Part shown: one piece after another, positions 1 to 23,058 of the stretch
Numbering within the stretch: the first letter of the stretch is position 1
Layout: each line of letters starts with the position of its first letter
Origin: a virus
Virus record (IMG/VR): IMGVR_UViG_3300025118_000149
Coordinates: 1-23,795 of that record
Reading direction: 5' to 3' (one strand)
Length of the DNA: 23,795 nt
Made by a program: the position numbers and the translations under genes
Notes under the pieces: model-generated
The model's input: the letters and a program-made list of their open reading frames with translations, nothing else
Database searches by the model: none
What the model was told of the DNA's origin: nothing

Positions 1-884
1 TCTACATTGTTTAGTTGCATTAGTAAATAATTTCTCTTTAACAAGTTACTACTTTTTTTTATATTTTCCAAGAGTTTTATTTTAGAATCTGAATTATTTA
101 CAAAATTTATTAAATCCATAGCCGTAAAATCTTCATCTTCTGTAATTTGTGGAATGTATTTTATCAAAGATTTTAAACCAGCTCCCATAACTCCATTGAT
201 ATTATCTGATTTATCTCCATCCACAATTCTATATGTTAACATATTTCTTGATGGTAAACCAAACTCTTCCAATACTGCTTGTTTGTTATATAATTTTTTC
301 TTTGTAGGACTCCATACCTTCACTCTATCATCAACTAATTGAATAAAATCTTTATCTGTTGACATCAATATACAATCACTTTCTGGCAGTAATTGTTGTG
401 AGATATAAGCCATTGTATCGTCTGCTTCAATCCCATCAACTGAAACTAATGTTAGAGGTAATTGTTCTAAATACTCAACCAACCTACCCATTTGTTGTCT
501 CATAGATTGTTGTTCATCTTGAGGAGCTGTTCCCCAATCCACATTACGATTCAATCTTCGTTTAACTTTACGAGTACCTTTGTATTCTGGATATATTTTC
601 TGTCTTCTTTTACTTCCACCCTTTCCGTCAAACACAATAATACAACGAGATGGTTTCAATATATCACAACTATATCTAACTGATTTCATAAAACCAACCA
701 TACCACCAATATGTAATCCATCTTCATTTAACGCAGGATTAACTGCAAATGACCTGATAAATGTATTCAGGCCATCTACAATCAATACTCTGTCGTTAAG
801 ATGATTTACAGCTTTGTGTGTATCATCTTTTGTTTGGTCTAAAAAAGATAAATATTTTTCATTTAATTCTTTTTTAGAGTTCAT
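1..884 (-). CDS. FEN/T4 RNase H-family 5'-3' nuclease, 3' end cut by window
   Basis: This gene encodes a flap/5' nuclease that would remove RNA primers or 5' flaps during replication and recombination. The first 294 residues are present and the frame runs off the left edge. Family motifs appear in order: VLIVDGLN with metal-ligand Asp37, IVFDG with Asp86, the basic arch region around KRRQKIYPEYKGTRK (about 92-106), GIEADD (151-156), STDKDF (175-180), and the helix-three-turn-helix approach VDGDKSDNI (221-229) followed by GVMGAGLKSL. T4 RNase H is about 305 residues, so little is probably missing. The ATG at 884 lies inside the end of recA (11-base overlap). GAGG sits about 7 bases upstream, which suggests translational coupling. 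An 8-base T run at 53-60 does not break the frame. Family assignment is firm. Its role as the replication RNase H is inferred from neighbouring recA and gp32. Confidence 0.9.
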   Translation of the reverse strand, partial: MNSKKELNEKYLSFLDQTKDDTHKAVNHLNDRVLIVDGLNTFIRSFAVNPALNEDGLHIGGMVGFMKSVRYSCDILKPSRCIIVFDGKGGSKRRQKIYPEYKGTRKVKRRLNRNVDWGTAPQDEQQSMRQQMGRLVEYLEQLPLTLVSVDGIEADDTMAYISQQLLPESDCILMSTDKDFIQLVDDRVKVWSPTKKKLYNKQAVLEEFGLPSRNMLTYRIVDGDKSDNINGVMGAGLKSLIKYIPQITEDEDFTAMDLINFVNNSDSKIKLLENIKKSSNLLKRNYLLMQLNNV

Positions 885-1992
885 CCAATACCTCATCGGT
901 TTGTTCTACATCATCAATACCAAGTTCCTTAGAATCATATTTAATAATACAAGCATCACAGATTAATTTGTAACAATAATCTTTTAATTCTGAATTTTCT
1001 AACATTAGATTTTCAAAATCTTTAGATAAGAACTTGTATTCTTTAATTAATTCACCAGTTTCAAGGTCACAATGTTGTAATGTATACCAAGCACCACCTA
1101 CTTTTAAAAGTTTGTGTTCTTTCATTACAGTTAACCAACTACCAAAGTCATCAATACCTTTATCAAAGTAAAGTGGAAACTCTACAGTCCTCATTGGAGG
1201 GCCGAGACGATTCTTAATCACTTGTCCTTTAATCTTAATACCTACAGTATTTTTATTAGTATCTTTGATTTGTCCAGCATTTTTGAATCTAACACGAGTT
1301 GATGAATGGAATGGAAGAGCCTTACCACCTGAAGTAGTCCAAGGATCTCCAAACATTACACCTAACTTTTGTCGTAATTGATTTGTGAAAATCAATGCAA
1401 CTTTTTGTCGTGCTATCATTTGTGTTACTTTTCTCATAGCTTTTGATATGATGATTGCTTTGGCTGTTGCCCAACCATCTTTATCAAAGTCAGCATCCAT
1501 TTCTTGTTTAGTAGAAGCAGCTGCTAATGAATCAACTAAGATTGTAACTAACTTATCTTTGTTTGATTCTCTGATTTTGGTAACAATTGTTTCAATAGTA
1601 TCAAATATTTCTTCACAAGTTTCAAGATGTACATATAACATTTTACTTGTATCAATACCAATAGCCCTCAAGTATTCTTGAGATACTGCTGATTCTGTAT
1701 CAATGTAAACTGCGATACCATCTTGTTTTTGTGTTGAAGCCAATAGATGAGAACCTATTAGAGATTTACCACTTCCTTCTAAACCATTTAATTCTGTGAT
1801 TTTACCTACGGCAACACCACCATTTGGTTTATTAGCAATTGCTAAATCTAACATAGTTGAACCAGTTGAAATCCAACCCGTCACATCAGTAGGATTACCA
1901 CCTTCTTCAAGAAAGTAAGCAACCTTTTGATGTTTGAATTGTTTATTCAGTTCATCGGCAATTATTCCAGCCAATTCGTCTTTTTCTGACAT
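874..1992 (-). CDS. recA: RecA-family recombinase
   Basis: This is an ATP-dependent strand-exchange protein, filling the job UvsX has in T4. The 372 residues contain a Walker A motif GLEGSGKS (70-77, Lys76), the catalytic-Glu segment YIDTES (Glu100), a Walker B strand ILVDS (Asp154), and the L2 region with NQLRQKLGVMFGDP followed by TTSGGKALPF (204-227). This L2 region reads like cellular RecA more than T4 UvsX. The C-terminus is acidic (DDVEQTDEVLDEL), as is usual for RecA. The start has a clear AGGAG 7 bases upstream of the ATG. The gene lies 112 bases downstream of the gp32-like gene, and the 5' nuclease gene starts inside its last codons, so the three form a recombination/replication group. 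Whether recA has its own promoter is unclear. The intergenic region holds inverted repeats. Confidence 0.95.
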   Translation of the reverse strand: MSEKDELAGIIADELNKQFKHQKVAYFLEEGGNPTDVTGWISTGSTMLDLAIANKPNGGVAVGKITELNGLEGSGKSLIGSHLLASTQKQDGIAVYIDTESAVSQEYLRAIGIDTSKMLYVHLETCEEIFDTIETIVTKIRESNKDKLVTILVDSLAAASTKQEMDADFDKDGWATAKAIIISKAMRKVTQMIARQKVALIFTNQLRQKLGVMFGDPWTTSGGKALPFHSSTRVRFKNAGQIKDTNKNTVGIKIKGQVIKNRLGPPMRTVEFPLYFDKGIDDFGSWLTVMKEHKLLKVGGAWYTLQHCDLETGELIKEYKFLSKDFENLMLENSELKDYCYKLICDACIIKYDSKELGIDDVEQTDEVLDEL

Positions 1993-2104: not shown

Positions 2105-2869
2105 TTAATTATTGAACAAGTTATCAAATGCATCTGACACATCAGTTTTAGCAGTTGTCGCAGTTTGTTCTGCAACCTTTTCAGTAGTGTTCGTTGGAGC
2201 ACTTGTTTCTGCTTCATCTGATGGATTCAGAAAGTTTTGTAAAACTTCTTTCAACTCATCATAAGTTGGCTCATTGTAAAGTTTTGTCAAATCAGATTGA
2301 TTATCAAAGATACTTTCTAATAACTTAGCATCTTCAGTAATCGGTGTCTGATTAGGTTTAACTCTTACAGTAGTTTTACCATATTGATTTCCAGCTTCAG
2401 CAGGTGTTTGTCTTTCGATACCAATATCTCTACCATTAGTAGCATCAGTAATGTCACCATAATCAGGGTCAGCAATTACACCAAGAAGTTCTTGATATAC
2501 AGTTTTACCGAATCCCCAAAATTTAACACCTTCTGATTCTTTACCACGAACTACAACTGGTGCAAAAGTTCTCATTTTAGGTTCAAGTCTTTTACCTTGA
2601 ATCCATTCGTCTTTATTACCTGTTGATTTTAGTTTGTCAGCAAATTCAGCTACTGGATCTGGTCTTCCAAATGAAAGAGGTGATAGGTAAGTTTTATTAT
2701 TACCTAAGTTATAATGAAAGAATAACTCAATGAATGGGTTATCTTTATTATGTTTGTAAGGAACAACACGAACAACTTGTTTACCTGGTTCAGGTTTCCA
2801 AAAGTTATCTTTTGTATTTGAAGTTGATTGTAATGTTGCGAGTTTGGATTTTATTGCATCTATATCCAT
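2105..2869 (-). CDS. 32: gp32-like single-stranded DNA-binding protein
   Basis: This is a T4 gp32-family ssDNA-binding protein of 254 residues (T4 gp32 is 301). It would coat single strands during replication and load partner proteins. The N-terminal basic/Ser-Thr segment (KSKLATLQSTS) resembles the cooperative-binding region. The core begins with KPEPGKQVVRVVPYKH (25-40) and continues through FWGFGKTVYQELLG (about 119-132) and the IADPDYGDITD segment. A Thr/Ala/Glu-rich linker leads to an acidic-hydrophobic tail, DVSDAFDNLFNN, which in this family recruits partners. The protein contains no cysteine at all, so the zinc site of T4 gp32 is absent. AGGAG lies upstream of the ATG, and a sigma70-like promoter sits about 90 bases upstream. 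Confidence 0.85.
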   Translation of the reverse strand: MDIDAIKSKLATLQSTSNTKDNFWKPEPGKQVVRVVPYKHNKDNPFIELFFHYNLGNNKTYLSPLSFGRPDPVAEFADKLKSTGNKDEWIQGKRLEPKMRTFAPVVVRGKESEGVKFWGFGKTVYQELLGVIADPDYGDITDATNGRDIGIERQTPAEAGNQYGKTTVRVKPNQTPITEDAKLLESIFDNQSDLTKLYNEPTYDELKEVLQNFLNPSDEAETSAPTNTTEKVAEQTATTAKTDVSDAFDNLFNN

Positions 2870-2995: not shown

Positions 2996-3382
2996 TTATT
3001 TTTTTTCAAATTTTTTCCATTTACCTATTGGACACTCTGCAGTTGCATAATGACATTTAACATTCATAAAACAACCACACTCTGTACATCTACCATCTTT
3101 CTTATCTGTATCAGGATTAACCTCATCATATTTTAAAAGTGGACATTGTTTACAGATTTCCCATCTTTCTTCTGCTACCTCTTGAGGAACAATTACATGC
3201 TTTCCCCTCATAAAGGCTTTCAAACTCTTCCAATGAGTAACAGCTAAGTCTCGAATCTGTTGAGATATTGGTGGAAGTTTCTTTTCTTCCTTTAACATAT
3301 CCTCCGATTCTTTTATCTTCTTTAACTCATCTTTGGTTGCTTCTCTATCAACCGTTACTTTTGGTTTAAATTTGAAACTCAT
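2996..3382 (-). CDS. Small Cys-rich probable zinc-binding protein
   Basis: This 128-residue protein has a charged, helical N-terminal half and a C-terminal cysteine cluster. ERWEICKQCP (72-81) is followed by GRCTECGCFMNVKC (97-110) and AECPIGKW (115-122), giving seven cysteines (77, 80, 99, 102, 104, 110, 117) and nearby His111. The CxxC...CxxCxC pattern fits a metal-binding knuckle or ribbon. I know similar small proteins from tailed-phage genomes but no established function. The ATG overlaps the stop of the thioredoxin-like gene by 4 bases (ATGA), so the two are translationally coupled and may act together, for example in redox chemistry at a metal site. The function is not assigned. Confidence 0.75.
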   Translation of the reverse strand: MSFKFKPKVTVDREATKDELKKIKESEDMLKEEKKLPPISQQIRDLAVTHWKSLKAFMRGKHVIVPQEVAEERWEICKQCPLLKYDEVNPDTDKKDGRCTECGCFMNVKCHYATAECPIGKWKKFEKK

Positions 3383-3933
3383 TTTACTCCGAGATGATTC
3401 ATCAATTTATCTAATTTTTGTTCAACAATAGATATTCTATCATTTGAATTTTGTTGTTGATTTTTTCTAGCTTCCCATTGTTTTTTAAATCCATCAACAA
3501 CATCCTCTGTCGTTGTAAGATTAGGTAGATGATTATTTTCACCTCTCCACTTTTCATAAGCTTGTTTCCACTCATCTATAAGTTTTTCATCTTCCCAATC
3601 CTGTGGTAGAGGTGGGGGTGGTGATTTTGGTTTAGGTAATTCTGGTATTTCTTCACCATCAGCCCATTTTTTAATTGTTTCTTCATCTCTCCAACCACAT
3701 ATTGTATTTCCAGTTTCATAATCAACTAAAAGTGGTGTTCCACATCTTAAATCATATTTGTTTTCAATTTCTCTTTTTAAACCTTGATTATCTTCCTCAC
3801 TTAAATCAAGTCTCAAAATATCATAACCATCACTATTTAATTTTTCTACTATTGAATCTATCTGTTTACAGAAAGCACAGCCTACTGAATGAAAATAATA
3901 TAATGTTGATTCTTTTTTGGATTTTTTTTCCAT
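3379..3933 (-). CDS. Thioredoxin/glutaredoxin-fold protein with C-terminal extension
   Basis: The first 90 residues look like a thioredoxin-fold redox protein. A beta strand LYYFHSVG leads to the CAFC active site (Cys19-Cys22). DILRLDLS follows, then the cis-proline site GTPLLVDY (Thr66-Pro67) and a final CGWRDEETIKKW. After that comes a proline-rich linker (PPPPLP, 105-110), a charged helical region with repeated Trp (DWEDE, EWKQAYEKW), and a short C-terminal heptad-like helix (ISIVEQKLDKLMNHL). At 184 residues it is about twice a phage glutaredoxin. Possible roles are reducing a ribonucleotide reductase or delivering electrons to the coupled Cys-rich protein. The extension could be a docking or oligomerisation segment. 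The fold is well supported; the substrate is unknown. Confidence 0.75.
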   Translation of the reverse strand: MEKKSKKESTLYYFHSVGCAFCKQIDSIVEKLNSDGYDILRLDLSEEDNQGLKREIENKYDLRCGTPLLVDYETGNTICGWRDEETIKKWADGEEIPELPKPKSPPPPLPQDWEDEKLIDEWKQAYEKWRGENNHLPNLTTTEDVVDGFKKQWEARKNQQQNSNDRISIVEQKLDKLMNHLGVK

Positions 3934-3952: not shown

Positions 3953-4351
3953 TTATTGAATTTTTTCTATTTTGAAAATTCTTGTGTTTATTTTGTTCAA
4001 ACCATCCGAATTTGTTACCATTAACATATTCTTAAAGTTTTCCCAGGGTATCATAAATTTATTATCTAAGACACCATTGTTTAAATTCTTTATACATTCG
4101 TTTAATGCATTTATTGTATATAATGTATTTGAATGTTTTTTTCTATGTAGTGAAATCGTTCCCTCTACTTTATTGTAATCTATACCATTATTTGTATCTA
4201 CATTATAAGTACAAATTAACTCATTCACATTGTTTTCATTTTGCAATACATATACTTTACTGAATATAATTTCATAAGCGTCAACTATTTTCTCAATTGT
4301 TTCATCAAGACTATCTTTTGTTGTGAATGTTGCTAGTAGTTGAGATTTCAT
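3953..4351 (-). CDS. Conserved T4-like phage protein of unknown function
   Basis: This soluble 132-residue protein begins MKSQLLATFTTKDSLDETI and has alternating strands and helices. Features I recognise from conserved hypothetical proteins of marine T4-like phages are ELICTYNVD (about 44-52), ISLHRKKHSNTLYTINALNE (about 66-85) and KFMIPWENFKNML (about 98-110). The strong conservation suggests a core role, but none is known to me. Its ATG overlaps the stop of the 622-residue gene in TAATG, so translation is probably coupled. It sits between the nuclease-like and thioredoxin-like genes in the putative early operon. Confidence 0.7.
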   Translation of the reverse strand: MKSQLLATFTTKDSLDETIEKIVDAYEIIFSKVYVLQNENNVNELICTYNVDTNNGIDYNKVEGTISLHRKKHSNTLYTINALNECIKNLNNGVLDNKFMIPWENFKNMLMVTNSDGLNKINTRIFKIEKIQ

Positions 4352-6219
4352 TATTCTTCTTCAGACTGTTTTTTCAAAAAGTTAGTTTTCTGTGGTTCTG
4401 GCCATTCATTTACATCTGTTCCAAATTTTAAAGCGTTTGACATAAAATTAGTTTGTGCCATTTCGAATGTAGGTGAAGCACCTATTCCCCTCGACCTTGA
4501 CTTTATCGTAAACAATGGTAATTCACTACCATCATCTAGTTTAATTTTAATCGTACCATCTTTCGCACCATCTTTGTAATCAATCTTTAATCTATCTCTT
4601 AAAGCTTTTTGTAATAATTTTTTATTTTCATCTGATTTTACATTTCTATAATCTTTAAGAGCATTTTCTACATCTGAACCAAATAAATTTAATAAAGTTC
4701 TTTCACTTAATTGAGAACCATCAGGTTCAATTCCATACACAGTCATAAATTTATCAAGATTCATATCAGTATCAGTTCCAAAAATTTGTTCAACATGTAT
4801 ACCTTTTAAAACCTCATCTTTTATAGCAGATTCTATTTGTTTACTATCTTGTATACCTTGTAAAAATCTCTGAGTTAATCTAATATCAGCATCTCTCATA
4901 TCATTGTAAATAGAAGGGTCTTCATTCATCATTTCTTCGGTTGCTGATATTTTAGCTAGAATTTTGACATCATTTTTTGTCATCTTCTTATCTGATTTAC
5001 CTTGTAACCTATCAAACAATCCATCATCCATTCTATTAATGTATGTTTCATAACTAGGGCCTAAAACTTTTCTAGCATATTCAGTATCAGTTTTTAATCT
5101 ATTTACAACATCTGGATAAGCTTTAGATATTCTTAATTTATCCACTCCACTATTAATAGATTGTTTTAAATCTTCTTGAAAACTTTCAATACCAGCTTTC
5201 TTTTTAAATTCTTCAACTTCTGCTTCTGAAACTCCTCTTTCAATTAAATCATTAGATAGTTTATCAAACACTTGTTTATGTCCACCATTTCTTATAAACA
5301 CTTTACCATCTTTTTTAAGTGATACCCCAACTCTAGTTCCATCTTTTGTTTTAACAAACATATCAGCTGATGTTCCATGATTTTCAACATCTATAGTTTT
5401 ATGTCCACTCTTAGTATCCCAAACAATCTCATCAATATTATCAATACCAAATGTAGATTGAATGGATTTGGTAGCAGCTATAGAAGCGTTAACCCATTCT
5501 TTAGTTAAAAATGTGTCTTTATCATTTGCAATAGACATTAATGTTTCTGTTACCTGTTCATAAGATTTACCCTCTTTTAACATTCTTAATGCTTTATGAG
5601 TTGCAGCCTCACCAGCTCTTGAAACATGTGTTCCAGCACCTTTGTCAAAATCAGATGTTCCACTTTCTTTATCTTTTTGTTCTTGAGTCTTTGAATAGTT
5701 TAAAGCTGCATCGGTATCATTATGGTCTCTATCTCTAAAGTAATCTAAATCTTCTTCGTCACCATCCATTTGTGACATAAAATCATCCATATCCTCTTCA
5801 TCATCACCATCCATTTGGTCTAACTGGTCACCAGTTTCTTTTTCTTTTTTAAATGGTGTATCAGGAATCTTTGTTTTTGATTTAATTTCTTTCTCATCAC
5901 CACTACCACCTTTTGCAACTAATTTACCATCTACTGCCTGATGTGTAACTTCACCACCCTCTTTTCCATAGGCACCTTTTCCGTGATGAACTAATCCCAT
6001 CTTTTTAGCTTTTTCTTTTTCCTTATCATCAAGTCCACCATCTTCATTGATTAAATTCTGAATAACTTCGTATATAACTTTGTTTGGTAAATTCAATTCT
6101 TCCATTGATTCACGAAGTTCTTGGATGTGGTGTGCGTTTTTTGGATTAGGCATTCCATCGTGAACACGATATGCCCATTCAATTAAAATCTCTTCTATGA
6201 TTTCTGAAATATGTTTCAT
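4351..6219 (-). CDS. Large acidic-linker protein with possible PD-(D/E)XK-like nuclease core
   Basis: I do not recognise this 622-residue protein as a named family. It has a helical N-terminus (MKHISEIIEEILIEW, 1-15). Next is a Gly/Lys stretch around LVHHGKGAYGKEGG (76-89), then a very acidic linker with two near-copies of QMDGD(D)EED (about 135-158). A folded region starts at about 195: RAGEAATHKAL (201-211), then DEIVWDTKSGHKTIDVENHG and SADMFVKTKDG (284-294), then RVGVSLKKDGKVFIRNGG. The order Glu204, Asp286, Ser300-x-Lys302 resembles a PD-(D/E)XK nuclease core with Ser in place of the usual Glu/Asp. The C-terminal 300 residues are helical. The start abuts the stop of the polymerase-like gene (TAAATG), with GAGG upstream. 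A DNA-processing role is inference; a virion protein is the main alternative. Confidence 0.6.
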   Translation of the reverse strand: MKHISEIIEEILIEWAYRVHDGMPNPKNAHHIQELRESMEELNLPNKVIYEVIQNLINEDGGLDDKEKEKAKKMGLVHHGKGAYGKEGGEVTHQAVDGKLVAKGGSGDEKEIKSKTKIPDTPFKKEKETGDQLDQMDGDDEEDMDDFMSQMDGDEEDLDYFRDRDHNDTDAALNYSKTQEQKDKESGTSDFDKGAGTHVSRAGEAATHKALRMLKEGKSYEQVTETLMSIANDKDTFLTKEWVNASIAATKSIQSTFGIDNIDEIVWDTKSGHKTIDVENHGTSADMFVKTKDGTRVGVSLKKDGKVFIRNGGHKQVFDKLSNDLIERGVSEAEVEEFKKKAGIESFQEDLKQSINSGVDKLRISKAYPDVVNRLKTDTEYARKVLGPSYETYINRMDDGLFDRLQGKSDKKMTKNDVKILAKISATEEMMNEDPSIYNDMRDADIRLTQRFLQGIQDSKQIESAIKDEVLKGIHVEQIFGTDTDMNLDKFMTVYGIEPDGSQLSERTLLNLFGSDVENALKDYRNVKSDENKKLLQKALRDRLKIDYKDGAKDGTIKIKLDDGSELPLFTIKSRSRGIGASPTFEMAQTNFMSNALKFGTDVNEWPEPQKTNFLKKQSEEE

Positions 6220-7461
6220 TTATAACCTCTTTGTAATGTCTTGCATTTCACCATAGTTTAAACCCATTTTGGATTTGGTGTAATGTTTATTTTCTTCTAA
6301 AATTGATTTTATTTCTCTCAAAGTTTCCACTCCATCTGTTTCTGAAAAATCGAATAGAAAACTATCATACCCATATAAAACCAATTTTGTCTTCTTCCCT
6401 AATAAATAGTCTTGAATTAATAAAATCTTCTTAATATTAGATTCAGTTTCTAAAGCCTGAATTAAATAGTTAAAAACTTTATTTCTATTTAAATCCTCGT
6501 AATTCTTAAATAATAGTTTCCGTCTATAAATATCAGTTGAAACACAATTATGAGTATTTATTTCGTTCCATTTCTTATTTATATAAGTATGAACTTTATC
6601 AAAAAATGGAACTTTTTCTCGTGTTTCTTTGTCAACTCCACCATATAATAATTTAAAAGTTCTTTGTTTTGATTCCTCATATGAACAACCGTAGTCTTGA
6701 GCTAAGTATTCATGAACTGATTGTATACCAAAAAAATGTCCAACTAAATCACCAATTAATCTCAAGTGATATGCATCAAAATCAAACTCCACAAGATAAT
6801 CATTTTCAGCTACAAAAGCTTTTCTTTTTTCAGGTGGTAGAGCTGCAAAATTTACAGAACCAAATGAATTACTTGGACGACCTGTTGTTGTCCATAAATT
6901 ATAGTTTGAATAGAGTTTTCCATCTGATATATGTTTCTTTACTCTTATGTCAAATATATCACATACATCATCTGAAACCTTGATTCCATTCTTTTCAATT
7001 GAGGTAAATGCCTTAATAACATCATTCATATATTCATCATTTTCACCTGTATATGCTCTAGCCATCTTCTCATATACTTCACTACAATACTCATTATGTT
7101 TCGATAATGGTATGATTTCGTTAAGTTTTTTAACATTGTAGAACTTACTACTCAGGAAATCTATTGCATTATTACGAATATTATTGTCAAATGGTTTACC
7201 TGTTTCATTCCACCAAATGAAGTTTTTATCTGAAACATCTTTAAATTCATAAAAATGATTTAATAATTTTTTATCAGGTGTTTGAATAAATTCTTCATTC
7301 AACCACTTATAATCTTCCATAAATTTATCTGAATCAGGATGTTTTTGAATTATAAAGAAGTTATCATCACCCTCTGGTTGACACCATAAGGCTGATAATC
7401 CATTGTTTTTATGTAATGGATGTAGGTTTGGATCTTTAAATATAGGTATAACACAATACAT
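6220..7461 (-). CDS. Compact divergent family-A DNA polymerase-like protein
   Basis: This 413-residue protein has recognisable Pol I-type motifs in the right order. These are a thumb-entry helix AFTSIEKNGIKV (151-162), TTTGRPS (191-197), motif A DFDAYHLRL (Asp227 as the catalytic Asp, Arg234), motif B KQRTFKLLYGG (Lys265, Phe269, Tyr273), NxxxQ in the Q-helix (Asn331, Gln335), and motif C VLYGYDSFLF (Asp366). Both metal-binding aspartates are kept. The oddities are His232 where Pol I has the steric-gate Glu, Ser367 where it has Glu of HDE, and Tyr261 where it has the first motif-B Arg. Only about 30 residues separate the thumb helix from TGRPS, so the thumb is largely gone. Residues 1-140 are unrecognised and show no DxE exonuclease motif. 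It leads the putative early operon. T4-like phages normally replicate with family-B gp43, so a repair or gap-filling role is plausible. Confidence 0.75.
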   Translation of the reverse strand: MYCVIPIFKDPNLHPLHKNNGLSALWCQPEGDDNFFIIQKHPDSDKFMEDYKWLNEEFIQTPDKKLLNHFYEFKDVSDKNFIWWNETGKPFDNNIRNNAIDFLSSKFYNVKKLNEIIPLSKHNEYCSEVYEKMARAYTGENDEYMNDVIKAFTSIEKNGIKVSDDVCDIFDIRVKKHISDGKLYSNYNLWTTTGRPSNSFGSVNFAALPPEKRKAFVAENDYLVEFDFDAYHLRLIGDLVGHFFGIQSVHEYLAQDYGCSYEESKQRTFKLLYGGVDKETREKVPFFDKVHTYINKKWNEINTHNCVSTDIYRRKLLFKNYEDLNRNKVFNYLIQALETESNIKKILLIQDYLLGKKTKLVLYGYDSFLFDFSETDGVETLREIKSILEENKHYTKSKMGLNYGEMQDITKRL

Positions 7462-20443: not shown

Positions 20444-20746
20444 CTATTTATTCTTCTGTTTATAAATTTTTATAATTTTTCCACTCGGACCAGACCTTAT
20501 ACCTTGACCACCTGGACCTGGACCTATATCTCCCTTTTTTGGACCAATAATGGGTTGATGACCATATTCGAATATACCAATATCATCTCCAAAATTAGAT
20601 GATATCGCATCACTTATAGGTGTATAACTACTACCAAATTTTATTTTACCTTTAGATGATATCGCATCACTTATAGGTGTATAACTACTACCAAATTTTA
20701 TTTTACCTTGTGGAGCGAATACACTTTTCAAATCTTTTAATGCCAA
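20444..20746 (-). CDS. Small protein with a perfect internal tandem duplication
   Basis: This 100-residue protein of unknown family begins MALKDLKSVFAPQ, then two identical 19-residue units containing GKIKFGSSYTPISDAISS. An acidic stretch (FGDDIGIFEYG) and a Gly/Pro-rich end (GDIGPGPGGQGIRSGPSG) plus a basic tail follow. The start is a TTG, but AGGAG sits 8 bases before it inside the end of the upstream gene, so initiation there is credible. Without the duplication the protein would be 81 residues. Its N-terminal decapeptide resembles those of the 538- and 638-residue structural proteins. It sits in the neck/tail-top operon, where a small structural or assembly role is likely but unproven. 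Confidence 0.65.
   Translation of the reverse strand: MALKDLKSVFAPQGKIKFGSSYTPISDAISSKGKIKFGSSYTPISDAISSNFGDDIGIFEYGHQPIIGPKKGDIGPGPGGQGIRSGPSGKIIKIYKQKNK
20595..20709 (-). repeat. Perfect 57-bp tandem duplication
   Basis: Two copies with a 57-base period match at every position (20595-20651 and 20652-20708, plus one base). The period is a multiple of three, so the frame is preserved and 19 residues are duplicated. The lack of any difference, even at silent sites, points to a very recent event. Confidence 0.95.
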
Positions 20747-21141: not shown

Positions 21142-23058
21142 TTATTGAAAGTTATCAGTTAACTCCTGTCTACCTATAAAATAAGTTTGTAATTTTGTTA
21201 TTTCATCACTATTCAACTCTTTATTGTAATACGCCATTTCAAATAAGTCAAATGCATCTGCAACATAGCTATCATCACCAATCATATTTATTTTAACATC
21301 TACATCTTTATTAAAACCACTATCTGTTCCAACATTGGTTTTATTTATAAATGTAGTTATCAATCCACCATCAGCATATGAAGCCTTTTTAATCGTTAGT
21401 AAGAATTTAGTATTGTATACTACATCTGAACTTGCATTTACAGTAGCAGCATCATTATCGCTATCATCCTTTCCTCTAATGTTAATAACATTACCACCAT
21501 CTGTATTATAATTACCTGTAAATCTAATTCGATTGTCATCTCCCTCACCAATCGCTTGCCCTAAATTAGTTATTTCTGTTTCACCATCAGCATCATCACC
21601 TGCATTATCTTGTTGTTGTAAAACATAAAAGGCAGTAAATCCATCTAACAACATCGTGTTTGTAAAACTCATTCTATCAGCTTTTGAATTACCACCTGAT
21701 TGTGGTTCTCTATATCCAAATCTTATACCATTTGAACCTGTATCAATGTGTGGATTACCTATGTTTGTAGTTCCGTCTTTTAATCCAGATGTATCACCTG
21801 AATGTGATGTTTGCATTTCAACTAAGTGATTACCATTAGTACTTAAATCGGTAATTTGTGTTACTTCATCTTGAACTCCCCAAGATGGGTCAGTTACAGT
21901 GGATTTAACTGTGCTTTCGGCATTTCCATAAAATGATAATCCTGATATTTTTAATGGTAATAATCTATTATCTGGCGCATCTCCTCTACCAATACTATAA
22001 TGTCTAGCTTCATTTAAATTAGCTTTCATAGATATTCTAGCTTTATCAACAGCCATCTGACTTTCATTAAATATTTTTTTAGCTATCGTTTCATCTAATT
22101 GAAACAAATAATTACTTTCTGGTATTTCCAACCATTTGTTCCAAGTTAATTTTTCACTACCTTGTTTTTTTCTTGAAATTTCTGATAATGTTCCAACTAA
22201 TTTAAATGTGCTTAAATTATTTGTTTCTTTTAAAAATTTATCAAACTCATCTTTTCTATCAACTATTATATCTTGAAAACTTTGAGCTTTTTCTAATTTA
22301 GCTTCTAATATAGAATTTTCTTGTGATAAACTTGTAAGATGTGTTACTTCTTTTGATAATGAATATACTTGTCCATTTAAATTTGTAACTTCTTCCTTTT
22401 TTTCTCTTAATTCTTGTCTTACATTTTCATTAATTTTAATATTTTTTTGTAAGTTATCAATTAAATTATTAGCTTCTTTTAATTTATCTAAAGATTCTTT
22501 TAGTTTAGTTTTGTAATTGTCAATCTTATCATTTTTTGATACTAAAGCTTTTTCATATGTATCTAAATTATTTATATATTCTTGATATACTCTTTTTCTT
22601 TCCGTCTTAACTTCATTGACAACTTTTTTACTATTTTTAGTTTCGTGATTTAATTTATGATTTAACTTATTAAATTTTTCATTTAATTGTTTATTAAGTT
22701 TTTTAGCTTTTTCAATCACACTATCTTTATAAGAAAGTCTTTCTTTTTGTTCATTAATTTTTTCATATAAAGGATTAAACTCTGATTTAATTTTTTTAAT
22801 ATCATTTTCTTTTAATTGAAGTTTATTTATATAATCTTTTTCTTTTATTGAAAAAGTACCCTCTTCAAAATGTCTCGCTTTATTTAATTCCTGTAAAAGA
22901 TTATTCTTTTCATTTTCCAAATTTACAACTTGATTAGATAAATTTTGTGTATTTTCCTCTAACCTTTCAATAATTTTTTCTTTGTTTTCTATCTGGTCTT
23001 CATATTGAGAAGTTATTGGTTTTCCACTAAATCTTTCTTTTAATATATCTAAACTCAT
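21142..23058 (-). CDS. Long coiled-coil protein with C-terminal LamG/lectin-like domain
   Basis: The 638 residues fall into two parts. Residues about 20-285 are an almost unbroken coiled coil, rich in Lys/Glu/Asn/Leu heptads and lacking proline apart from one NPLYEK break near 95. After a linker (about 286-365), residues about 370-632 form a beta-rich Gly/Asp/Asn/Thr domain. This includes ISGLSFYGN, TDLSTNGNHLVEM, LDGFTAFYVLQQ, TKFLLTIKKASYADGG and the ending FDLFEMAYYNKELNSDEITK. That ending is typical of LamG/concanavalin-like domains, which bind sugars. Beside neck genes, a rod with a binding head resembles the whisker position of T4 (fibritin, wac), but there is no foldon. A neck whisker, fibre or host-surface adhesin is inferred. 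The ATG directly follows the stop of the tiny basic gene; GAGG is 10 bases upstream. Confidence 0.65.
   Translation of the reverse strand: MSLDILKERFSGKPITSQYEDQIENKEKIIERLEENTQNLSNQVVNLENEKNNLLQELNKARHFEEGTFSIKEKDYINKLQLKENDIKKIKSEFNPLYEKINEQKERLSYKDSVIEKAKKLNKQLNEKFNKLNHKLNHETKNSKKVVNEVKTERKRVYQEYINNLDTYEKALVSKNDKIDNYKTKLKESLDKLKEANNLIDNLQKNIKINENVRQELREKKEEVTNLNGQVYSLSKEVTHLTSLSQENSILEAKLEKAQSFQDIIVDRKDEFDKFLKETNNLSTFKLVGTLSEISRKKQGSEKLTWNKWLEIPESNYLFQLDETIAKKIFNESQMAVDKARISMKANLNEARHYSIGRGDAPDNRLLPLKISGLSFYGNAESTVKSTVTDPSWGVQDEVTQITDLSTNGNHLVEMQTSHSGDTSGLKDGTTNIGNPHIDTGSNGIRFGYREPQSGGNSKADRMSFTNTMLLDGFTAFYVLQQQDNAGDDADGETEITNLGQAIGEGDDNRIRFTGNYNTDGGNVINIRGKDDSDNDAATVNASSDVVYNTKFLLTIKKASYADGGLITTFINKTNVGTDSGFNKDVDVKINMIGDDSYVADAFDLFEMAYYNKELNSDEITKLQTYFIGRQELTDNFQ

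Follow-up and report, generated by a model that had tools for sequence, protein, structure and literature searches.

A thumb-truncated family-A DNA polymerase of the divPolA1 family in the replication cluster of a T4-type phage

The question raised by the locus

The thumb of DNA polymerase I (Pol I) serves DNA grip and processivity. What, then, does a family-A DNA polymerase do that has almost no thumb and is encoded by a T4-type phage? The question is raised by an ORF of a 23.8-kb virus contig from a marine T4-type myophage (the whole stretch analysed, hereafter the window), which carries T4-like tail tube, sheath, sheath stabiliser and baseplate genes and whose annotated genes lie on the minus strand and lead into a replication cluster at the left end of the contig. 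The ORF runs on that strand from 7461 to 6220, from ATG to TAA (Table 1), and a reading-frame check of the plus strand gave many stops. With dN/dS values of 0.13–0.30 between the window gene and six relatives, the gene is under purifying selection and is not a chance ORF. A scan for promoters and terminators around it returned nothing above chance.

Table 1. Positions of the polymerase gene, its key codons and its neighbours in the window
Feature	Position	Strand	Basis
5'-3' exonuclease, FEN family, runs off contig end	3..896	-	Pfam E 3.6e-32, alignment
UvsX/RecA-like recombinase	874..1992	-	Pfam and PHROG matches
gp32-like single-strand DNA-binding protein (SSB)	2105..2869	-	Pfam gp32 E 1.3e-15, phrog_1192
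g132, 132-aa protein, ferredoxin-like N-terminal part in model	3953..4351	-	linkage, model
g622, 622-aa protein	4351..6219	-	ATG directly after divPolA1 stop (TAAATG)
divPolA1, thumb-truncated family-A DNA polymerase, 413 aa	6220..7461	-	homology, profile alignment, model
divPolA1 residues 1–142, vestigial 3'-5' exonuclease-like domain			
divPolA1 residues 143–162, thumb-entry helix and strand			
divPolA1 residues 163–180, thumb remnant			
divPolA1 residues 181–413, palm and fingers			
R195 codon, TGR loop (E. coli R668)	6877..6879	-	R in 271/271
D227 codon, motif A catalytic Asp (E. coli D705)	6781..6783	-	D in 271/271
H232 codon, at Pol I steric-gate position E710	6766..6768	-	H in 271/271; E in full-size PolA of related phages
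Y261 codon, at motif B position R754	6679..6681	-	Y in 255/267; R in full-size PolA
K265 codon, motif B (E. coli K758)	6667..6669	-	profile alignment, relatives' alignment
Q335 codon, Q-helix (E. coli Q849)	6457..6459	-	Q in 271/271
D366 codon, motif C catalytic Asp (E. coli D882), after Y365 (for H881)	6364..6366	-	D, Y each 266/266

Family assignment and spread

An earlier note on this DNA had proposed that the enzyme could be a new polymerase subfamily. The proposal had been anticipated: a family with the same diagnosis was named divPolA1 by Yutin et al. (2024, Virol J 21:200; PMC11348598) in 14 phages, including the Flavobacterium immuto phages. The text on divPolA1 in that paper describes (i) a palm with catalytic residues, a truncated thumb and an inactivated exonuclease domain, the last with a superposition in which the acidic residues are lost; and (ii) occurrence in addition to a regular polymerase, which may belong to family A, B or C, with replication genes downstream; and it leaves open whether divPolA1 itself is the replication enzyme (PMC11348598). 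The window protein shares 33.2% identity over 81% (E 6e-47) with gp001 of Flavobacterium phage immuto (host Flavobacterium sp. LMO8), a founding member named in that text. By this homology, we assign the window gene to the known divPolA1 family as a new member; the catalytic Asp pair, the truncated thumb, the loss of exonuclease acidic residues and the downstream replication genes were all found in it as well. The active-site substitutions and the linkage to the small protein g132 described below are not mentioned in the paper's text on divPolA1 (PMC11348598). Together with the wide spread of the family and the intact 5' nuclease in its cluster, they are what our analysis adds to the published family. 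Our literature search found no biochemistry for any divPolA1 member.

According to the same text, barbaviruses, which have another polymerase, also encode an additional family-A polymerase that lacks a canonical thumb, divPolA2; its N-terminal globular domain is unrelated and its genomic neighbourhood varies (PMC11348598). By contrast, the N-terminal part of the window protein aligns with Pol I, and its gene order is conserved.

The window protein scored 23.9 bits against Pfam DNA_pol_A, below the curated cut-off of 34.3; 26 of 64 divPolA1 members matched that profile at E<=0.01, and several immuto-type members passed the cut-off. In a sequence search of the PDB, a profile built from the 64 relatives matched Pol I large fragments, mainly from residue 185 onward.

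The gene occurs on hundreds of environmental phage contigs: searches of IMG/VR gave 398 stretches with the window query, 312 with the immuto query and 109 with the Microcystis phage Mel-JY01 query, sets that may overlap. It is also present in the 484-kb uncultured phage LR756508. A viral_contigs scan with this huge-phage member as query gave no match. The sole divPolA1 in the bacterial and archaeal genome collection, accompanied by g132 (CALMEO010000055.1, 53155–66336), is carried by a 104.6-kb contig from an uncultured-bacterium MAG; this contig is probably phage DNA that was binned with a bacterium. A polymerase lineage that has persisted without a thumb in three or more phage clades offers a ready-made test of the thumb's function.

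Thumb deletion and predicted fold

The earlier note had listed motifs A, B and C, the TGR loop and the Q-helix in order within 413 residues, and the profile alignment to E. coli Pol I bore this out, the motif order being intact. In addition to the pairs in Table 1, F269, Y273 and N331 were matched with E. coli F762, Y766 and N845. Between E156 and R195 the window protein has 38 residues. In 271 distinct relatives, 22–42 residues lie between the equivalents of E541 and R668, compared with 126 in E. coli Pol I, whereas the full-size PolA of Flavobacterium-/immuto-type relatives, used as a control, has 216 residues in the same span. The thumb deletion in divPolA1, which the note had also described, is thus true, about 88 of about 126 thumb-region residues being gone. 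The fingers are shortened as well: the equivalents of D705 and K758 are separated by mostly 37–45 residues (52 in E. coli by numbering) and those of K758 and D882 by mostly 97–100 (123 in E. coli), which reproduces the shortfalls of 15 and 23 residues given in the note.

The AlphaFold2 model of the window protein (pLDDT 90.6, pTM 0.89) has a predicted family-A palm and fingers fold. Pol I large fragments were the best PDB matches in Foldseek (E 2.8e-16) and in the VIA structure comparison (Z 26–27 over about 346–387 residues). Residues 1–408 of the model align with residues 315–876 of Bst Pol I (about 385 residues, Z 26), starting within the exonuclease-like domain. Because the alignment runs end to end, the first 140 or so residues are placed by the model at the exonuclease-domain position, with no substitute thumb predicted within the chain. 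The candidate explanation that residues 1–140 supply a full thumb was rejected, since this region of the model aligns with the exonuclease-domain region of Pol I.

Among 64 sequences, only H14, K65 and P118 are invariant in residues 1–140, and none of the invariant residues is acidic; proofreading activity therefore appears very unlikely from the sequences. By analogy with Pol I, the loss of the thumb is expected to lower DNA grip and processivity.

Like the large fragments of E. coli, Bacillus and Taq Pol I, divPolA1 has the palm fold, motifs A, B and C, the TGR loop and the Q-helix, and the same domain order of an exonuclease-like domain, a thumb (a remnant in divPolA1), and palm and fingers. 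It differs from them in the missing thumb-region residues, in the shorter spacings, in the replacement of E710, R754 and H881, and in having its 5' nuclease as a separate gene. A full thumb and the E710/R754/H881 set, as found in canonical Pol I, are absent from the window protein.

Active-site substitutions

Residues were counted in the alignment of 271 distinct relatives, some positions being scored in 266 or 267. The equivalent of E710 is His in every relative, that of H881 is Tyr in every relative scored, that of R754 is Tyr in 255 of 267, and that of E883 is Ala or Ser in all relatives scored. Ser at the E883 position is also present in the active Tt72 polymerase (PMC9324360). The equivalents of R668, D705, K758, F762, Y766, Q849 and D882 are kept in all or nearly all of the 271 (F762 in 271/271). 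In alignment, the full-size PolA of the same phages retains E710, R754 and H881; the substitutions therefore belong to divPolA1, in which E710→H, R754→Y and H881→Y are fixed or nearly fixed.

Three fixed or nearly fixed substitutions might mark a catalytically weak or inactive descendant that has been retained for a structural or regulatory part in the replication complex. We hold this to be scarcely probable, given that both catalytic Asp residues and the equivalents of K758, Y766, Q849 and R668 are kept in all or nearly all relatives.

E710 together with F762 has been described as a gate that excludes ribonucleotides (PMC9324360). Because this steric-gate Glu is replaced by His, divPolA1 could have relaxed sugar selection and make or extend primers with rNTPs, much as RNA polymerases of this superfamily use them. 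The invariant His, the nearly fixed Tyr at R754, the Ala or Ser at E883, and the retention of the canonical residues in full-size PolA fit such an activity, but the other gate residue, F762, is invariant, the His may itself act as a gate, and immuto has an annotated DnaG primase, so that we regard such relaxed selection as quite unlikely.

The regular polymerase beside divPolA1

No family-B polymerase was found in the window, which ends 6.2 kb downstream of divPolA1. One was found in Mel-JY01, in Mel-type contigs, where in one case (contig G025, L464/L467) it is seemingly split over two ORFs, and in the relatives G003, G006, G007 and G010, of which G006 carries a divPolA1 90% identical to that of the window. 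In window-type relatives the family-B gene lies 12–19 kb downstream of divPolA1, and in Mel-JY01 it adjoins clamp-loader genes. A similar apparent split into two ORFs (L085/L086) was seen in the 484-kb phage (LR756508.1, 259–268 kb). Immuto-type contigs of Flavobacterium phages encode a full-size family-A polymerase; family C gave no match in the 13 records tested. The statement of the earlier note that T4-type phages use a family-B replicase thus holds for several relatives, but not for the Flavobacterium-type members, which have full-size family A instead.

Two long contigs, G001 and G002, showed no family-B gene, and both end before its place in relatives. G001 (168.8 kb), which matched none of families A, B and C, was considered as a case of divPolA1 as the sole polymerase; this was rejected because no more than about 2 kb separate its divPolA1 from the contig end, so that truncation explains the absence.

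Since relatives encode a separate full-size replicase, divPolA1 is most likely an accessory enzyme and not the replicase, in agreement with the note's view that it has a different job. The opposite arrangement, in which divPolA1 is the true phage replicase and some other task falls to the regular polymerase, draws on the position of divPolA1 in a conserved replication cluster, the regular polymerase being, in the text on divPolA1, of differing families and in a variable place (PMC11348598). We consider it very improbable: divPolA1 is small and lacks the thumb and the proofreading residues, the family-B polymerase of Mel-JY01 is the one that adjoins clamp-loader genes, and the contigs lacking family B end short of its expected place. 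The family of the companion polymerase varies while divPolA1 stays, which suggests that the job of divPolA1 goes with the set of SSB, recombinase and nuclease and not with any single replicase.

The gene cluster and the 5' nuclease

The order divPolA1, g132, SSB, recombinase, 5'-3' exonuclease and DnaB-type helicase is conserved in all three clades. The window itself holds the SSB, the recombinase and the 5'-3' exonuclease downstream of divPolA1, and the helicase is seen in relatives. The 5' nuclease is a homologue of the nuclease domain at the N-terminus of E. coli Pol I, with its acidic active-site motifs intact in the alignment; the motifs IVDG, FDG, EADD, STDKD and GDxSDN are kept. In cellular Pol I the 5' nuclease and the polymerase are on one chain, whereas in divPolA1 phages they are two genes of one cluster. 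Mainly because a 5' nuclease with Pol I motifs is a separate gene of the divPolA1 cluster, we infer that the two resemble a split Pol I. In Mel-JY01, the gene annotated as 'DNA polymerase I' (L082 20255–21295; PP395634.1 55792–56832) is the 5'-3' exonuclease, and the divPolA1 gene carries the annotation 'hypothetical protein'.

The RNase H/Okazaki processing set of T4 is a related arrangement, in which the 5' nuclease (RNase H) is likewise encoded near the gp32 gene. T4 differs from the divPolA1 phages in that, to our knowledge, it has no family-A polymerase, its gaps being filled by gp43.

We give about an even chance to short-patch gap filling behind the FEN-type 5' nuclease as the role of divPolA1. 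Working beside a separate full-size polymerase, as seen in relatives, divPolA1 would be a weakly DNA-holding, non-proofreading, short-patch polymerase acting on SSB-coated DNA or recombination DNA. The 5' nuclease would remove RNA primers or flaps, leaving short gaps, and divPolA1 would fill them, the two genes together working as a split Pol I. An enzyme without a thumb would be suited to short bouts of synthesis at a nick or gap, and partner proteins, g132 being the first candidate, could hold the DNA. Other observations count against gap filling. The substitutions cost divPolA1 residues that other family-A enzymes retain and need to bind the nucleotide and select its sugar, so ordinary gap filling with dNTPs cannot be taken for granted; and the 5' nuclease matched 1,633 of 50,697 phage records, widely without divPolA1, so the pairing is not exclusive.

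The same cluster could instead serve a recombination- or lesion-associated polymerase that extends 3' ends in UvsX-made D-loops or synthesizes past damage, with no role in primer removal. The UvsX-like recombinase and gp32-like SSB genes and the absence of proofreading residues are in line with this, and a reduced thumb and an open site would be compatible with poor or altered templates. The cluster, however, also includes a 5' nuclease and a replicative helicase and is thus a general replication cluster, and our search found nothing lesion-specific, so that we judge this role unlikely. Among the jobs put forward in the earlier note, gap filling is made plausible by the neighbouring 5' nuclease, but translesion synthesis and end repair found no specific support.

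The linked protein g132

The protein g132 contains a conserved motif, H-R-K-K...NTxYTINxLN, and had no Pfam match and no significant PHROG match. It occurs together with divPolA1 in exactly the same six of the 50,697 phage records. For comparison, g1052, the upstream neighbour of divPolA1 used as a control, had no match in these records, and the SSB and the 5' nuclease matched 100 and 1,633. The g132 gene lies downstream of divPolA1 in 143/143 loci that extend at least 3.5 kb in that direction; in the reverse test, divPolA1 was found in 88/88 g132 loci with at least 4 kb upstream. Two apparent cases of g132 without divPolA1 (L360 and L347) were rejected, the polymerase being just upstream in the same contigs beyond the locus edge. 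The dN/dS of g132 is 0.065–0.13, so that it is more constrained than divPolA1. The linkage indicates a shared module and is not evidence of physical partnership; the divPolA1 phages may be one lineage.

The model of g132 is confident (pLDDT 94.5) and had no clear PDB match. Because its ferredoxin-like matches, over the first 70 or so residues, are weak (best Z 6.9, Foldseek E >= 0.13), no function was derived from the fold. A divergent RegA, the T4 translational repressor encoded next to gene 43, was likewise rejected as an identity for g132 (hhalign probability 0.4%), and a regA-profile search of these divPolA1/g132 loci gave no match.

Conceivably, although we think it highly unlikely, divPolA1 and g132 are a two-part polymerase, in which g132, or a surface that it recruits, would replace the thumb in trans and the His/Tyr/Tyr site would confer unusual nucleotide selection, for example of ribo- or modified nucleotides. 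The substitutions and the linkage offer testable handles on three points: how divPolA1 selects between rNTPs and dNTPs, whether it fills gaps together with the 5' nuclease of its cluster, and whether a DNA clamp may act in trans.

Other genes of the window

In the clade of the window, g622 lies between divPolA1 and g132. It contains a GLVHHGKGAYGKEGGEVTHQAVDGKLV stretch and a TSADMFVKTKDGTRVGVSLKK stretch, the latter resembling by eye a PD-(D/E)xK nuclease core, and belongs to no Pfam family; longer versions (about 750 aa) are found in other clades (L347 and L360). Between g132 and the SSB, the window has genes for a DUF6171-like Cys-rich protein and a glutaredoxin/thioredoxin-like protein (2996–3382 and 3379–3933, minus strand, with a 4-base overlap), which are also present there in many relatives, not all. 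A 638-aa protein (21142–23058, minus strand) had no PHROG match and no Pfam match above cut-off; its long N-terminal half is coiled-coil-like, and its C-terminal part resembles by eye a lectin-type domain. A small ORF (20444–20746, minus strand) contains an in-frame duplication of about 18 residues (GKIKFGSSYTPISDAISS).
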